IMG/VR virus record: IMGVR_UViG_3300022843_000085
Coordinates: 1 to 22,275 of that record
Origin: a virus
DNA: 22,275 nucleotides
Strand: one strand, 5' to 3'
A model generated the notes under the pieces. That model ran no database searches. It was not told the DNA's origin and was given only the letters and a program-made list of their open reading frames with translations. Positions 9,867-15,948 of this stretch are shown here, piece after piece. Numbering within the stretch: the first letter of the stretch is position 1; every line of letters begins with the position of its first letter. A program made the translations under genes and the position numbers.

Positions 9867-10421
9867 CTAGTCGCTATCTTTAACTTTTGATAGTAATCTA
9901 GTTGCAAGGTCGGCTGATTCTTGGTCTTGTCCGATTCTTTTAATAAAGTCATCTTCTATATTTATTTGTTGATTTGTGTTGTCCCTTGTTATTCCTCCTT
10001 TAGCAACTCTTTCTACTTCTGTCAGCATTTTAAAAGGATGTGCTATCTTTGAAACTATAGCAACTAACTCTACATCTGATAAGTTTGCAAAATCTAATTC
10101 TTTTTTTTCTTTTAATCTTTTTAATAATTCTTGTGCTGGAGTTATTAGAGAATATGTCATTTGTAAGGCATGGCTTCCCTGTCGTTTACCCATTTCCTCC
10201 ATTTCAGTTTTCATAGAGTTATATCTTATCTGTGCTTGTTGTTGGTCAAACTTGCTAACTCTTGATACCCAACCATATCTTGATGAAATCTTTTCTATTT
10301 CTCTAGTTGTCAATTGGACTTCTTCAGCTACTTTCTTTAATGTTCGTTTATATCCCATGTTTTGATACACGAGATAAAACTCATAGTGTTTATTGGATTC
10401 TTCTGTTTCTTTTTCTATCAT
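9867..10421 (-). CDS. terS: Terminase small subunit-like DNA-binding protein
   Basis: The 184-residue protein precedes TerL. Residues about 25-60 form a helix-turn-helix (TLKKVAEEVQLTTREIEKIS then RYGWVSRVSKFD), a layout shared with many small terminase subunits (HTH followed by a GW-x-x-R segment). A long helical middle could form the ring. The C-terminus is acidic and ends KVKDSD. Small subunits recognise the packaging site and load the motor. No clear ribosome site is seen before the ATG. Two tandem GTTCGGT repeats lie just upstream at 10443-10464 and may be related to DNA recognition. Confidence 0.75.
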   Translation of the reverse strand: MIEKETEESNKHYEFYLVYQNMGYKRTLKKVAEEVQLTTREIEKISSRYGWVSRVSKFDQQQAQIRYNSMKTEMEEMGKRQGSHALQMTYSLITPAQELLKRLKEKKELDFANLSDVELVAIVSKIAHPFKMLTEVERVAKGGITRDNTNQQINIEDDFIKRIGQDQESADLATRLLSKVKDSD

Positions 10422-10442
10422 AGAAATTATTAAAAGCTATTA

Positions 10443-10464
10443 ACCGAACTCTTACCGAACTTCT
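10443..10464. repeat. Tandem 11-bp imperfect repeat upstream of terS
   Basis: ACCGAACTCTT is followed directly by ACCGAACTTCT (two copies, last four positions varied). On the coding strand each half reads as a GTTCGGT core, spaced 11 bp (one helical turn) apart. It is the only C/G-containing patch in an 80-bp AT-rich gap before the terminase small subunit, where packaging (cos or pac) or operator sites often lie. Confidence 0.45.
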
Positions 10465-10503
10465 ACATTATGATATTAAATAAATCAAATAATATCTAGG
10501 CAA

Positions 10504-10719
10504 TCAATAGTTGTGTTGTTCAAATGTTTTATCTTCAGCTCTACTATGATCATCATCTTTCATACATTGGTAGTGTGCATAAACATGAGTGATAGGTTCT
10601 AATGTTTTTACCAGCGCAACAAATGAATGATCTGAATAAATTTCTTTTTTGCAATATATGCACTTGGAAATATATCTGCTTAAATCTTCTAATTTTGTTT
10701 TTTTTGCTCTATTTCTCAT
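10504..10719 (-). CDS. Small putative zinc-binding protein
   Basis: The 71-residue protein carries CIYCKKEIYSDHSFV and then HVYAHYQC, giving C-x2-C ... H-x2-C, a plausible zinc site, with an overall basic N-terminus (MRNRAKKTKLEDL) and acidic C-terminus. It is the first gene of the leftward packaging cluster, separated from terS by 82 nt. HNH-type nucleases often sit next to terminases, but the catalytic His-Asn-His set is not evident here, so I call it only a small zinc-ribbon-like protein. The ATG has TAAGG about 7 nt upstream. Confidence 0.6.
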   Translation of the reverse strand: MRNRAKKTKLEDLSRYISKCIYCKKEIYSDHSFVALVKTLEPITHVYAHYQCMKDDDHSRAEDKTFEQHNY

Positions 10720-10730
10720 GTTTACCTTAT

Positions 10731-10744
10731 GTTCCTCCTGGAAC
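10731..10744 (-). other. Short hairpin over an AGGAGG sequence
   Basis: GTTCC, loop AGGA (minus strand), GGAAC forms a 5-bp perfect stem 11 nt before the ATG of the zinc-protein gene. It would occlude an AGGAGG, although the closer TAAGG is the better ribosome site. It is possibly regulatory, but may be chance. Confidence 0.25.
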
Positions 10745-10791
10745 TCCCGTCTTTCCTATCTTATTTATCTAATAATAATTAATAGAAACTA

Positions 10792-10820
10792 TTGACAATT
10801 ATTACCAATAATGATAAGAT
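10792..10820 (+). promoter_or_regulatory. Sigma-70-like promoter for the SprT/SET operon
   Basis: Perfect -35 TTGACA (10792-10797), 17-bp spacer, -10 TAAGAT (10815-10820) preceded by TGA as in an extended -10. Predicted transcripts start near AATAACAAAAAGG, 18-20 nt before the ATG at 10845. It shares this architecture with three other promoters in the window (see findings). Confidence 0.75.
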
Positions 10821-10844
10821 TAAGAATAACAAAAAGGAGATTAA

Positions 10845-11006
10845 ATGACAATAATTATTTTACTAGCTTTAGCATTACCGACTTGGTTTATCATGTTGGG
10901 TCTAGCAGAGTGTGATGTTTTAAGAAAAGGTAAACTGACTAAATATACTGGAATTAATTTAATGAGAGGCGTTGAGGAGTACAGAGTGGAGGACTACTAT
11001 GGGTAA
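10845..11006 (+). CDS. 53-residue single-pass membrane protein
   Basis: ATG at 10845 follows AGGAG by 5 nt and is the first gene after the promoter. The product begins MTIIILLALALPTWFIMLGL, one hydrophobic helix, followed by a polar tail CDVLRKGKLTKYTG...YRVEDYYG. The stop overlaps the start of the SprT-like gene by 8 nt (ATGGGTAA), so the two are translationally coupled. No family recognised. A small membrane peptide at the head of an operon could act on the host envelope, but this is only inference. Confidence 0.65.
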   Translation: MTIIILLALALPTWFIMLGLAECDVLRKGKLTKYTGINLMRGVEEYRVEDYYG

Positions 11007-11505
11007 ATTTAAAGTTAGAGTTTCTCTACCTAGAGGCGAATTTAATCAAGATAAGTGCAGTATCTTATTACATGCTACTCAATTTTATGCAAAAAAGATA
11101 TTGGGTACTAGATTAGCAAATCTTATCAATGTGAAAATTGATGTTAGAAAAACTATTTTAGATAATAATACTCTTGGAGTTTGTCAAATGAAAGTTACAG
11201 GTTCTAAAAGACAAAGACAATTTAAGATTGTATTGAATGCAAAAGGAGATTTACATTCGCAACTGCAAACTTTAGCACATGAAATGGTTCATGTAAGACA
11301 AAAAGCAAAAAACCAATTGCAATACAGATGGAACAAAAGTGATTCAAGCATCAAAGTAAGATGGATGGATAATGCTCCAGTAAGACCAGAGGATATTCCA
11401 TACAACCAAAGGCCTTGGGAAATTGAGGCAAGAAGTTTAGAAAGAGGATTTTACAAGGATTATCTGAACTTTGTTTATAAAATTAAAAAGAAAGGAGATG
11501 AGTAA
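10999..11505 (+). CDS. SprT-like zinc metalloprotease domain protein
   Basis: The 168-residue protein carries LAHEMVHVRQ (HExxH at 94-98), the zincin active site with two His ligands and catalytic Glu, and downstream PWEIEARSLERG, where a Glu around 141-143 is the likely third ligand. The region before the motif (VKIDVRKTI, FKIVLNA, then the HExxH helix) fits the SprT-like minimal fold found in phages. I chose ATG 10999 because GGAGG lies 6 nt upstream; an earlier frame-start at 10972 lacks this. It ends in a TAATG overlap with a small basic gene. Its substrate is unknown; the SprT/Spartan family cleaves DNA-bound or host proteins. Confidence 0.8.
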   Translation: MGKFKVRVSLPRGEFNQDKCSILLHATQFYAKKILGTRLANLINVKIDVRKTILDNNTLGVCQMKVTGSKRQRQFKIVLNAKGDLHSQLQTLAHEMVHVRQKAKNQLQYRWNKSDSSIKVRWMDNAPVRPEDIPYNQRPWEIEARSLERGFYKDYLNFVYKIKKKGDE

Positions 11506-11896: not shown

Positions 11897-11931
11897 GTTT
11901 TAATCTCCCTAAAGAAATGGTAGAGGTCTAT

Positions 11932-12231
11932 ATGGAAAATTATAGACCTTTGCCTGATTGTTTGACAATTAAATCTTCTAATATTGAGGGTTTAGGATTG
12001 TTTGCAACTGTTGATATTGAAATGAATACTGTCTTTGGTGTATCGCATATCTTATATCAAGATAAACCTGTAAGAACACCATTGGGAGGATTTATCAATC
12101 ATTCTGAAGATTCTAACTGCAAAAAACAATTAATCGGTAATAAATATTATCTATTGAGTAAAAACTCTATAAAAGCTGGTGATGAATTGACTTTGACCTA
12201 CACACTTTACAATGTTACTTCTTGTCTGTAG
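11932..12231 (+). CDS. SET-domain protein (putative protein-lysine methyltransferase)
   Basis: The 99-residue protein contains the two halves of a SET domain: an N-terminal SNIEGLGLFATVDIEMNTVF (S-x-I-x-G-x-GLFA, the SAM-binding GxG equivalent) and a C-terminal FINHSEDSNC (56-58 NHS) followed by SIKAGDELTLTY with the catalytic Tyr. This is the pseudoknot region that binds S-adenosylmethionine and lysine. It is shorter than cellular SET proteins because the insert between the halves is minimal, as in other single-domain microbial ones. ATG 11932 is preferred over 11917, since AGAGG lies 5 nt before it. It is the last gene of its operon and overlaps the convergent IbrB-like gene by 17 nt. Confidence 0.82.
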   Translation: MENYRPLPDCLTIKSSNIEGLGLFATVDIEMNTVFGVSHILYQDKPVRTPLGGFINHSEDSNCKKQLIGNKYYLLSKNSIKAGDELTLTYTLYNVTSCL

Positions 12232-12733
12232 GCACCCATGATTTTCCAAAACCATCTACTTGTTTTGTACCCCTGATAGTCATTCCTGAATTATCTAGCA
12301 ATCTTTCCAATTCTTCTTCTTCCATAGATAGTCTTTCCATAATTTCTTTATCAGGAAGATTATCTTCTTTCATTTTTCTAACTATCTCTGACATTTTAAG
12401 AACAGCATGAGTACCTCTAGCTCTATTGTGTCTTATTGTGGACATCATTCGGTGGTCCTTATCAAAATCAACTATTACAACAGGGACTTTTCCATCTGTC
12501 ATTTGTGATACTTCAGGGTCTTTAGATAGTGTCCATCTATGGAATCCATCTACAATTGTATTGTCTGATAGTATTACTATTGGTTGAGTCCATCCATCCT
12601 CTATAATAGAAGTTTTAAGCAACTGCAATTCAGGTGGTGCTACAAAATTTGGATTATAATCGTTTGCATTTAGAGTGTTTCTATCAACCCATTGGACTTT
12701 TCCTACTGGTTGATTATCAATACCTTGTTTCAT
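12215..12733 (-). CDS. ibrB-like: IbrB-like ParB/sulfiredoxin-fold protein
   Basis: The 172-residue protein has a ParB N-terminal-type domain: LNANDYNPNFVAPPELQLL, EDGWTQPIVIL, and NTIVDGFHRWTLS (the GHRR-type motif as GFHRW, 63-67), then IRHNRARGTH (100-109), comparable to the second ParB nucleotide-binding motif, and a helical C-terminus with a possible HTH (PDKEIMERLSMEEEELERLL). In Escherichia coli an IbrA/IbrB pair (PAPS-reductase-like plus ParB-like) lies on a genetic island and activates prophage eib genes. Here the same order occurs: the start overlaps the IbrA-like gene by 17 nt with GAGG upstream. Biochemical role unknown. Confidence 0.8.
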   Translation of the reverse strand: MKQGIDNQPVGKVQWVDRNTLNANDYNPNFVAPPELQLLKTSIIEDGWTQPIVILSDNTIVDGFHRWTLSKDPEVSQMTDGKVPVVIVDFDKDHRMMSTIRHNRARGTHAVLKMSEIVRKMKEDNLPDKEIMERLSMEEEELERLLDNSGMTIRGTKQVDGFGKSWVPTDKK

Positions 12734-13880
12734 CTTTTAACCTCATTTGATCTATTAGTTTTTTCTTTTCAGGGTCAGCATGACTAGACATGGTTCTTAA
12801 TCTTCTGCCTTTCATATCACCTCTTAAAGCTATCATACAAAGACCTTTCCAGGATAATCCTGTAATATCATCAGGAGTTGTATCAGGCACTGGTCTTCTT
12901 GCAAGATTTATATGATTTCCAACTGCTGATCTAACATTGGAAAGAATAAATTTTTGTTGTTCAATATCGTATAAAGCGACATTATCATAGAACCAATCTT
13001 TCCATGTTTTATCTTTTGGAAGTTTTATTCCACCAAATCCATACAATTGTGTTCTTGAATATTTTTCTGATGTTGATGCACCAGAAACTCTACCTGTCAT
13101 TTTTGCCCAAAGTTCTGGCCAACCGACTTTATACTGCCAAAGTCCTCTCATTGGTTCTTCCCCAAAAGGAACACAGACTCTTTGTTCATTCTTACCTACA
13201 CCCATTTTATCAAGAACATCATAAACTCTATTATAATCCCAATTATAAATTTTTGGTGCTAACCAAACATCTGAAGAAGTCCAATCATATATTGGTGATA
13301 CTCCATATGAATATCCACTTCGTGCTCCTGTTATCCAGTTATCTTTTACCCGATGTGATACTGCTCTAAACCTAGTTAAACTTTCTTGTGCTCTTAAACC
13401 TCTAACATCAGCTATTCTTCCATGAGTATGATCATAAACTAAATGTGATACTTCAGGAATTGTATGTCCAGGTTTAAAACCTTTTATGTCAGTAATTGCA
13501 AAATCAGGAATATCTCTTACCCACTTGTCTTTACATTTAGGGTCAAAAGGATACCAAAATGGATCTCTACGACTTCCTCCATTTCTATGTTTAACTGGAA
13601 TACATAACCATTTTAATCTTATGTCAGGGTCGTTTTTAACCCTCATCATATACTCTACAGTTTCAGGCATTATAACTTCCTCATCCCAGAAATAAACATC
13701 TAAAGGAAGTTTGTTTTTTTCTCTAGCAATCTTTAATGCTAAATTTAAACAGACTGTGGAGTCTTTGCCTCCTGAAAAAGATACAACTACTTTATCAAAG
13801 CTATCAAATAAATATCTAAATCTATCTAAAGCTGATTGATAAACATTAGTTTCAATTTCTCTTTTTTTTAATACTACCAT
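12717..13880 (-). CDS. ibrA-like: IbrA-like PP-loop ATPase (PAPS reductase superfamily, DUF3440 type)
   Basis: The 387-residue protein starts MVVLKKREIETNVYQSALDR and has the PP-loop VVVSFSGGKDSTVCLN (SGGKDS at 36-41), which binds and activates ATP. Other segments: LDVYFWDEEVIMPETVEYM, GLRAQESLTRF, PIYDWTSSDVW (as in PAPS reductases), then a long C-terminal region with RVCVPFGEEPMRGLWQYK and PELWAKMTGRVSGA, which I associate with DUF3440/IbrA. I see no ECGxH catalytic cysteine, so it is probably not a PAPS reductase but an adenylating or ATP-pyrophosphatase enzyme. ATG 13880 is chosen; a TTG at 13901 is possible. It overlaps the symporter by 29 nt and the ParB-like gene by 17 nt. Confidence 0.85.
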   Translation of the reverse strand: MVVLKKREIETNVYQSALDRFRYLFDSFDKVVVSFSGGKDSTVCLNLALKIAREKNKLPLDVYFWDEEVIMPETVEYMMRVKNDPDIRLKWLCIPVKHRNGGSRRDPFWYPFDPKCKDKWVRDIPDFAITDIKGFKPGHTIPEVSHLVYDHTHGRIADVRGLRAQESLTRFRAVSHRVKDNWITGARSGYSYGVSPIYDWTSSDVWLAPKIYNWDYNRVYDVLDKMGVGKNEQRVCVPFGEEPMRGLWQYKVGWPELWAKMTGRVSGASTSEKYSRTQLYGFGGIKLPKDKTWKDWFYDNVALYDIEQQKFILSNVRSAVGNHINLARRPVPDTTPDDITGLSWKGLCMIALRGDMKGRRLRTMSSHADPEKKKLIDQMRLKDETRY

Positions 13881-15261
13881 AATTTGTAAAGTAATAGACA
13901 ATTATTCCACTTGCTGACACAGTAAATATAGATGACCAAACTGCTAAATCAGTAAGACCATTAAATTTTGCATAAGCAAACATTGGAACACCAATAACTA
14001 AAGATGTCGTAATACCATAGAACATTCCTGGTTCTGATACTTTTTTATTAATTATTGTATAAATTGTCGGTATTAATGTTGATGCTCTTAATGTTCCATA
14101 GAAAATAAATAAATATAATATTTTCATATCAGGAATATTAGCAAGAGCAATTCCACCTATTGAAAGTAGAACCATTCCAGTTCTTGCATTAGTTAGTTTA
14201 TTTTTTGAATTAGGAATAATATCTGTACTTGCAATTGAAGATATAGAACACAATCCTGAATCTAATGTAGACACAAGACCAGATAATAACATCCAAACAA
14301 AAGGTATTAGAATAAATGTCGGCAATAATTCACTAACAGTTATTACATTGATTAGTTGTGCATTACCTCCTGCATCTATACCTAGACCGGCACCCATAAA
14401 TCCTATTACTGATGTAAATATTGGAACAACACCAAAGACTAATGCTGAAAGTAAAAATGATTTCTTGACTTCGTTTTGTTTTGTTGTAAATGCTCTTTGC
14501 CAAAAGGATTGATCACCAAATGGTCCTGCAAGTAATCCAATTGATACTACAATACCAAATGACCATGCAACTGATGAATCAAAGACATTAGAATACTCTC
14601 CAGAGATACCACCAATGCCTTTGACCATTACATCATAACCACCTCCTTGAATATAAACTAGAGGTACTACTACTAACACCACTATAAGTATTATTATCAT
14701 CTGCCAAACATCTGTCATAATTGAAGCCCTTATCCCTGATACAAATGAATAAGATAAAGCTATTGCTGTAAGTATAACTGTTACGACTGTATAATCTATT
14801 CCTGTTAAGTAAGTAACGACTGCACCACCAGCAAGTAGCTGAACAGCAAACTGACAAATAGAAAGAGCAGATAGACTAATGATATATAAAATCTGCACTC
14901 GTCTTGAATATCTAACATTCATATATTGAGCAAGTGTAAATCCATTTTTAAATTTGTTTCTTAAATATTGTGCAAAGTATGCAAAGATACAAAGACATAT
15001 TATGTTTGGTACTGTAAACCAAAAGACACCAGGCAATCCCTGTTGATATGCTTTTTGTGATGCTATGAATAGAGCTGGAGCCCATATCCAAGTAGCGGCA
15101 GTTGAAAATCCTGATTTCATAAAACCAACTTTTCTATCTGATACTAAAAAATTTGTATTTGTTTTAGATTCTTTTAAGTAGAAGTAAGATATTCCGAACA
15201 TGAATAATCCATAACTAATTAAAAGAATATAACCTGTTGAGGTACTTAATAGTGTTTCCAT
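13852..15261 (-). CDS. Sodium:solute symporter, SSS family
   Basis: The 469-residue integral membrane protein has about 12-13 hydrophobic segments from TSTGYILLISYGLFMFG to GIIVYYFTN. SSS hallmarks include STAATWIWAPALFIASQ (TM1-2, 53-69), SGIRASIMTDVWQ (175-187), GPFGDQSFWQRAFTTK (246-261) and SGLVSTLDSGLCSISS followed by ASTDI (327-348). S331-T332 align with the Ser-Thr of the Na2 sodium site known in PutP. GDQ-x-WQRA resembles urea/proton (DUR3) and related permeases, but the substrate cannot be read. Length is normal and the frame intact. It sits 4 nt after a ParB-like gene, with AAGGA upstream, and overlaps the IbrA-like gene, so it is in the phage operon. Confidence 0.9.
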   Translation of the reverse strand: METLLSTSTGYILLISYGLFMFGISYFYLKESKTNTNFLVSDRKVGFMKSGFSTAATWIWAPALFIASQKAYQQGLPGVFWFTVPNIICLCIFAYFAQYLRNKFKNGFTLAQYMNVRYSRRVQILYIISLSALSICQFAVQLLAGGAVVTYLTGIDYTVVTVILTAIALSYSFVSGIRASIMTDVWQMIIILIVVLVVVPLVYIQGGGYDVMVKGIGGISGEYSNVFDSSVAWSFGIVVSIGLLAGPFGDQSFWQRAFTTKQNEVKKSFLLSALVFGVVPIFTSVIGFMGAGLGIDAGGNAQLINVITVSELLPTFILIPFVWMLLSGLVSTLDSGLCSISSIASTDIIPNSKNKLTNARTGMVLLSIGGIALANIPDMKILYLFIFYGTLRASTLIPTIYTIINKKVSEPGMFYGITTSLVIGVPMFAYAKFNGLTDLAVWSSIFTVSASGIIVYYFTNYGSIKKKRN

Positions 15262-15265
15262 TTTT

Positions 15266-15904
15266 TTATTTCCTTACCAAAAACATCACAGACTCTGCAA
15301 ATGTTTTTAAATTGTTTGTTTCTTTTATGTTATTTAATACTTTGTATAATTCTTTCCTGTCTTCTTCTGTAAGTAGGATAGAAAATTCTACAAATCTTTG
15401 GTTCTCATCTGATGGATTAGAAAATGTGTTTGAAGTTCTAACAGTTTCATCACCACCTTCTTCTTGATTATTTTTTATATTTCTATCGGTTTCCATTTCT
15501 TGAAATCTTAATTTAATATAATCAAATTCACCCTCATCAAATCCAAGCAGTTGTTCGTCTATTTGATTTTTATCTATTAATTCTGAAATTTCTTTAACAG
15601 CTAAATCCCAATCCCAAGCAGTTTCTTCATGACTTCTGTTATCCATGAATCTATATGCTTTTACCTTTTCTTCAGAAAGTCCAACTGCTTTAAAAACTGG
15701 TACTTCTCTAAATCCAAGTTTTTCAGCCGCCTTATGTCTTGTGTGTCCAGCAATTATAATATTATTTTCATCAACTACGATTGGTTGTTGCCACCCAAAT
15801 TCTTTTAGACTTAAAGCAACTTTATCAACTGCTTTATCTGAAATTTTTCGTGGATTATTTTCGTATGGTTTTATTTCTGTTATACTTATTGTTTCAATAT
15901 TCAT
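15266..15904 (-). CDS. ParB-like nuclease-domain protein
   Basis: The 212-residue protein has a phage-type ParB N-terminal domain: ITEIKPYENNPRKISDKAVD, EFGWQQPIVVDENNIIIAGH and TRHKAAEKLGFREVPVF (AGHTRHKAA, 52-60), then YRFMDNRSHEETAWDWD. These domains bind CTP or nucleic acids, and are often fused to DNA methylases in phages; no methylase is fused here. The C-terminal half is an acidic linker plus FVEFSILLTEEDRKELYKVL. ATG 15904 is chosen over a TTG at 15916. It is followed after 4 nt by the symporter. A different ParB type from the IbrB-like protein; role unknown, possibly DNA modification, partition or regulation. Confidence 0.82.
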   Translation of the reverse strand: MNIETISITEIKPYENNPRKISDKAVDKVALSLKEFGWQQPIVVDENNIIIAGHTRHKAAEKLGFREVPVFKAVGLSEEKVKAYRFMDNRSHEETAWDWDLAVKEISELIDKNQIDEQLLGFDEGEFDYIKLRFQEMETDRNIKNNQEEGGDETVRTSNTFSNPSDENQRFVEFSILLTEEDRKELYKVLNNIKETNNLKTFAESVMFLVRK

Positions 15905-15948
15905 AAATAGGGACAATTTCCACTCTCGCTTTATTGCCCCAAACCTTT

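Follow-up and report, generated by a model that had tools for sequence, protein, structure and literature searches.

The 22,275-base viral record IMGVR_UViG_3300022843_000085 from IMG/VR, analysed here over its whole length as the window, contains terminase and portal genes and, on the minus strand, four adjacent genes for ParB2, a symporter of the SSS family, IbrA and IbrB. By following these genes through other phages and bacteria we found that in a ParB-X-IbrA-IbrB cassette, which often includes a second PP-loop gene, X is a swappable slot and the symporter one of the genes that fill it. The cassette recurs in many unrelated phages and prophages, which suggests that phages have a pathway for importing or making a small molecule, activating it and probably attaching it to nucleic acid. 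Our preferred reading, which we hold with slightly less than even confidence, is of a mobile phage cassette, ParB2-X-IbrA-IbrB with or without the second PP-loop gene. Its PP-loop enzyme would receive a small molecule, supplied or captured by X, probably for use on nucleic acid.

The cassette genes in the window

The four genes, with the evidence used to assign them, are as follows.

15266..15904, minus strand: ParB2, a ParB/Srx-fold protein (ParB_N, phrog_620) and the first gene of the cassette (Pfam, PHROG, neighbour conservation)
13852..15261, minus strand: SSS-family solute:cation symporter (phrog_20720), in the swappable slot X (Pfam, PHROG, AlphaFold2 model)
12717..13880, minus strand: IbrA-like PP-loop ATP pyrophosphatase (PAPS_reduct and DUF3440, phrog_2302) with an SGGKDS motif (Pfam, PHROG, alignment)
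12215..12733, minus strand: IbrB-like ParB/Srx-fold protein (phrog_2159) with a DGFHRW motif (PHROG, homology)

As the preliminary description had reported, the genes run head to tail; the re-derived coordinates match, with a gap of 4 nt between ParB2 and SSS and overlaps of 29 nt between SSS and IbrA and of 17 nt between IbrA and IbrB. ParB2 starts at the ATG at 15904 (the open reading frame finder lengthens the frame to a TTG at 15916) and IbrA at the ATG at 13880. The PHROG matches are strong for SSS (E 3e-112), IbrA (2e-83) and IbrB (3e-63). ParB_N of Pfam scores 38.6 bits with ParB2, above the cut-off, and 22.2 bits with IbrB, below it, so that the kinship of IbrB to ParB is taken from its match to phrog_2159. 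Against four relatives the ratio of non-synonymous to synonymous substitution rates is 0.09–0.16 for ParB2, SSS and IbrA and 0.03–0.13 for IbrB, with similar values for the terminase and portal genes; on these ratios all four cassette genes are under purifying selection.

The cassette is conserved as a unit

A scan of viral contigs seeded with SSS gave 57 other loci, at 39–100% identity. Both tblastn and gene clustering place ParB, IbrA and IbrB beside SSS in nearly all of the viral SSS loci; the SSS cluster is present in 58 loci, that of ParB in 53 and that of IbrA in 50, and the next family in only 14. Where at least 4.5 kb of sequence lies downstream, IbrA and IbrB are both present in 42 of 44 loci, and the linkage on which the preliminary description had based its candidate system is therefore found well beyond the window. 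One of the two loci lacking the pair (L048) ends at a contig edge and the other (L054) has a short SSS frame. In the latter the shortened SSS gene, at 9941-11011 with no IbrA or IbrB nearby, may be part of a decaying cassette.

The corresponding scan of bacterial genomes yielded 65 loci, 51 with IbrA beside SSS and 14 with SSS bare of it. A ParB2 homologue adjoins SSS in nearly all SSS loci. In every one of the 101 loci with both SSS and IbrA the cassette genes are on the same strand, and their median junctions are for the most part overlaps. The commonest order is SSS-PPL2-ParB2-IbrA-IbrB (52 loci), where PPL2 is the second PP-loop protein, of approximately 260 residues and belonging to phrog_424; SSS-ParB2-IbrA-IbrB is found in 20 loci, the order of the window, ParB2-SSS-IbrA-IbrB, in 14, and there are a few others. 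All five genes are open in prophages of cultured gut bacteria such as Blautia sp. An249, Flavonifractor sp. An100 and Acetatifactor muris DSM 23669. The linkage of the four genes is not due to chance.

Many of the cassette loci are prophages, and in several phages the cassette is situated directly upstream of the terminase genes. The carriers have at least three classes of terminase (phrog_15, phrog_2 and phrog_38), which indicates that the cassette moves as a unit. Isolate phages gave only short matches to the DNA of the window; in the phage collection SSS was found in a single record, a faecal virome scaffold, and the cupin described below in none.

A few loci depart from the usual arrangement. 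In Eubacterium plexicaudatum ASF492 (L087, 11307-15664) a prophage PPL2 matches in two separate parts with about 3.3 kb between them, as would result from an insertion, and in Parablautia sp. Marseille-Q6255 (L120, 9995-11384) SSS is present as two adjacent frames, so this prophage copy may be broken. Two close relatives of the window (L006, 6837-7535, and L007, 10600-11298) encode an extra PP-loop protein of 232 residues (PAPS_reduct, E 7.6e-13) immediately after IbrB, which the window does not have.

Slot X is occupied by alternative genes

Scans seeded with IbrA and with the cupin were each restricted to the best 80 matches. Most of the viral loci found with IbrA lack SSS, and the space between ParB2 and IbrA often contains another gene. 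This may be a cupin of approximately 230–270 residues or, rarely, a TctC periplasmic binding protein (L125, L126 and L129) or an aldehyde dehydrogenase (L163). Two loci (L150 and L153) have a gene of the short-chain dehydrogenase/reductase type in addition to the cupin. An apparent fusion of cupin and IbrA in L142 was ruled out, as there are two overlapping frames.

The cupin scan identified 354 relatives, of which the best 80 were kept. All 46 newly fetched cupin loci with adequate flanks contain ParB2, IbrA and IbrB and none contains SSS; conversely, there is no open reading frame of the cupin family in any of 127 SSS loci. SSS and the cupin are mutually exclusive. The occupants have also been exchanged repeatedly. 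On a tree of 126 IbrA sequences the five states of X require 12 changes, and at least five for SSS and at least five for the cupin follow from well-supported branches alone, the trees being quick ones with support from the Shimodaira–Hasegawa-like approximate likelihood ratio test (SH-aLRT) only. Exchange is seen between close relatives: L156, with a cupin, and L011, with SSS, are 78% identical in IbrA and 68% in IbrB, while L127, with a cupin, and L125, with TctC, are 79% and 83% identical, respectively.

A search of the PDB with the cupin profile gave weak matches to general cupins only, from which its chemistry could not be named. The slot proteins also gave cupin and AraC-type ligand-binding matches. 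TctC is present in the slot without its membrane partners, which suggests that ligand capture, besides transport, could fill the slot.

SSS and cupin genes are also found beside PP-loop genes in cells

On the cellular side the evidence comes from few loci, nine with SSS and one with the cupin. A PP-loop gene is present within approximately 3 kb in nine of the 13 bare cellular SSS loci that were inspected. The pairing of a symporter with a PP-loop enzyme, as the preliminary description had it for the window, therefore recurs in cells. In L060 and L062 the neighbour is an Asn-synthase-like gene (E ~1e-70), with homologues in L061 and L114; in L063, L064 and L069 a protein of 362–366 residues with an SGGIDS motif is encoded near SSS, and L065 and L070 have PP-loop motifs. 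The symporters of these nine loci form one supported clade with all those of phages (SH-aLRT 99). Of the SSS proteins outside this clade, neither the two closer outliers nor any of the six distant sequences from cells has a PP-loop neighbour.

These genes are rare in cells. In the phylum samples SSS was found in 1 of 297 and 6 of 286 genomes, the cupin in 0 of 395 and 1 of 288, and a Zn-ribbon protein in 1 of 297 and 1 of 288, these being only the SSS-bearing and the cupin-bearing genomes. The only cellular cupin found, in genome G906, is followed by a 330-residue Zn-ribbon protein, a 161-residue protein and a 586-residue Asn-synthase-like protein. The Zn-ribbon and Asn-synthase-like proteins are 31% and 46% identical to their counterparts beside the SSS gene of L060, and the shared neighbours imply that SSS and the cupin replace each other in two PP-loop contexts.

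The bacterial Asn-synthetase-like enzymes with a Zn-ribbon partner thus resemble the cassette in having the same SSS or cupin neighbour. They differ in belonging to another class of PP-loop protein, in having neither ParB nor IbrA, and in lacking the glutaminase cysteine: the cysteine at residue 2, which in the N-terminal glutaminase serves glutamine hydrolysis, is absent from all five sequences aligned, so the nucleophile must come from elsewhere. The Zn-ribbon protein (L060, 1665-2657, and relatives in L061, L062, L114 and L311) has a weak match to Toprim, below the cut-off (E 1e-4 to 8e-4), a possible link to nucleic acid.

Fold and substrate pocket of the symporter

The window symporter scores 76.9 bits with the SSF domain of Pfam (PF00474), above the cut-off, and its AlphaFold2 model has a complete SSS fold with a mean predicted local distance difference test score of 92.9. 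The closest structures to the model are CHT1 (Z 46.5 over 450 residues), DUR3 (Z 39.3) and also SiaT, and by sequence profile the nearest protein is DUR3 (E 4.5e-34). The symporter shares the full-length SSS fold with the urea symporters DUR3 and UreA and with the choline transporter CHT1.

The pocket was mapped by sequence alignment to that of UreA, which has been defined by mutation (PMC9783183). Trp82, Trp84 and Asp286 of UreA are retained as Trp58, Trp60 and Asp250. The symporter differs from UreA at five other positions of the pocket, where Tyr106, Ala110, Asn279, Thr282 and Tyr289 are replaced by Phe82, Asn86, Leu243, Gly246 and Phe253, and on this alignment it does not have the full set of urea-pocket residues. 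With three residues kept and five changed, the substrate is likely to be a small polar solute, though it is doubtful that this would be urea itself.

IbrA and IbrB

By homology the cassette is an extended form of the IbrA/IbrB locus. IbrA and IbrB of the window are 29% and 40% identical, the latter over 169 residues, to the proteins of the coliphage PhiR5_2, with nearly the whole of each protein aligned; the earlier assignment to an E. coli-type pair is upheld. As in the co-activator pair of E. coli ECOR-9 and of coliphages, the two genes are adjacent and overlapping. The PhiR5_2 locus differs in that there is no ParB2, X or second PP-loop gene beside it.

IbrA matches PF01507 (53.8 bits) and PF11922 (52.3 bits), both above the cut-off. 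Its N-terminal 250 or so residues resemble the reductases of 3′-phosphoadenosine 5′-phosphosulfate (PAPS) and adenosine 5′-phosphosulfate (APS), CysD, and the PAPS domain of flavin adenine dinucleotide (FAD) synthase. For residues 5–249 of the model the matches are FAD synthase (8ron, Z 15.6), APS reductase (7lhs, Z 14.6) and CysD (1zun, Z 14.5), while few PDB sequences align with the C-terminal 130 or so residues. The PP-loop and a G-x-R-x2-E-S-x2-R motif are conserved. Among 21 IbrA sequences there is no invariant or nearly invariant cysteine column, and the CysH-type ECGLH motif, with its C-terminal catalytic cysteine, is absent from IbrA. The DndC model TIGR03183 gives 21.3 bits against a cut-off of 290.4. 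The retention of the PP-loop and motif without a conserved cysteine speaks for an activation step with no thiol relay and against both PAPS reduction and sulfur transfer of the Dnd type, which we disfavour.

Function of the cassette

Taken together with the swapping of X, these features would be consistent with the following scheme. A small molecule would be provided or captured by X, which in the window would be a cation-coupled SSS symporter importing a small polar solute; its pocket resembles that of DUR3/UreA, with changes. At the expense of ATP, and with release of pyrophosphate, IbrA would activate either this solute or the acceptor of the solute, with no thiol relay involved. IbrB and ParB2 may bind nucleotide or DNA and direct the reaction; the ParB/Srx fold is known from systems directed at nucleotides and DNA (PMC10853773, PMC12839542). 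The end target would most likely be nucleic acid, for example phage DNA prior to packaging. The link between supply and activation is the better supported half of the scheme; a nucleic-acid target is plausible, and is its weakest step.

Several observations weigh against this scheme. There is no X gene in 31 of the best 80 viral loci found with IbrA, and isolate phages also carry IbrA/IbrB pairs without X or ParB2. Such pairs are common, which implies that X is dispensable for some function of IbrA and IbrB. The absence of membrane partners for TctC counts against the transport part. In cells, the cupin case is a single locus, and an Electrothrix genome (L318, 7029-9756) has a second copy of the Zn-ribbon and Asn-synthase-like genes with neither SSS nor cupin beside it. 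No marker gene for DNA modification emerges as a constant companion from the gene clustering of viral SSS loci, and a crude search for a methyltransferase motif revealed no constant partner in the vicinity of the cassettes. We know of no hypermodification in the DNA of phage lambda, whose NinC (L235, 1582-2454) falls in phrog_424, the family of PPL2. NinC is listed as non-essential (PMC10695390).

Two other explanations are unlikely but deserve consideration. In the first, the cassette serves gene control: IbrA and IbrB would act as transcriptional co-activators, and X would import or sense a nutrient that sets their activity. The homology to IbrA and IbrB is in keeping with this, since these are reported as transcriptional co-activators of the eib genes of E. 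coli (cited in PMC10434257), as are the cupin and AraC-type matches of the slot proteins and the TctC binding protein in the slot. However, a pure regulator would not need the intact PP-loop and G-x-R-x2-E-S-x2-R motif that IbrA keeps, and a Pfam search of the cassette proteins found no DNA-binding domain besides ParB_N.

The second, to which we also give a low probability, is defence or counter-defence, with the cassette marking or damaging DNA or nucleotides and so excluding other phages or evading host restriction. PP-loop and ParB-superfamily partners are found in the Dnd, Dpd and BREX systems (PMC10853773, PMC12839542), and many of our loci are prophages. In the phosphorothioation system Dnd the PP-loop enzyme DndC has the ParB-superfamily partner DndB, and the 7-deazaguanine system Dpd has a ParB-like ATPase partner (PMC10853773, PMC12839542). 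The cassette differs from both in the lack of conserved Fe–S or transfer cysteines in IbrA and in its transporter/cupin slot. PADLOC gave no specific match to the cassette: the best model for IbrA is BrxP, and that weakly (E 3e-7, 27 bits), the match of ParB2 is limited to the N-terminal part of an MTase_II model, and SSS matches none. Nor did PADLOC identify a nuclease effector for the cassette, which recurs without a constant nuclease.

It is much less probable still that the cassette is a metabolic helper, a PAPS reductase for sulfur assimilation accompanied by a nutrient transporter, even though this is the usual annotation as auxiliary metabolic genes. The annotation as PAPS reductase is given both by PHROG and in PMC10434257 and PMC11318856, and the phage ‘PAPS reductases’ so annotated (phrog_424, phrog_2302) are of the same protein families as the cassette proteins. 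In the Clostridium clostridioforme prophage LM41phi14, for example, phrog_424 is at orf40 and phrog_2302 at orf42; the available text of PMC11318856 files them under host metabolism and mentions no cassette. But IbrA has neither the conserved cysteine nor the ECGLH motif, the two ParB-fold partners are nearly constant, and no other sulfur gene recurs. That the symporter is an unrelated passenger beside an ordinary IbrA/IbrB locus can practically be dismissed: such pairs do occur without a symporter, but the linkage in 42 of 44 loci, the co-stranded overlaps, the purifying selection, the exclusion of the cupin and the repeated association all speak strongly against it.

Returning to supply and activation, the cellular loci allow a broader but distinctly more doubtful proposal, namely that a previously unknown class of PP-loop modification systems obtains its precursor through interchangeable supply parts, SSS or the cupin or, rarely, TctC or the aldehyde dehydrogenase. 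These parts would work with IbrA and the ParB proteins in phages and with Asn-synthase-like proteins in a few bacteria, and a small molecule, either imported or produced locally, would be activated and attached to nucleic acid. The swappable slot makes the function testable, as a transporter and a cupin that are interchangeable in two different PP-loop contexts would be expected to provide one compound, or two that are equivalent.

IbrA/IbrB and phage ‘PAPS reductases’ are present in hundreds of phages, and the literature that we found assigns them to sulfur or host metabolism. Our search of full-text literature, with subscription papers and preprints outside it, found no description of the cassette, these proteins appearing only as isolated ‘PAPS reductase’ metabolic genes, and no biochemistry of either group. 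To our knowledge, a modification pathway in a phage that is supplied through a dedicated solute transporter would have no precedent. If both the supply model and the nucleic-acid target are correct, the cassette would represent a new class of system.

Neighbouring genes

Two genes on the plus strand of the window lie close to the cassette. At 11917-12231 a 104-residue SET-domain protein (PF00856, E 1.4e-8; phrog_28741) is encoded convergently to IbrB, with an overlap of 17 nt between their ends; its homologues adjoin the cassette in close relatives only. At 10972-11505, between the cassette and the terminase genes and on the strand opposite to the cassette, there is a gene for a weakly metallopeptidase-like protein (DUF6782, below the cut-off; phrog_10499).

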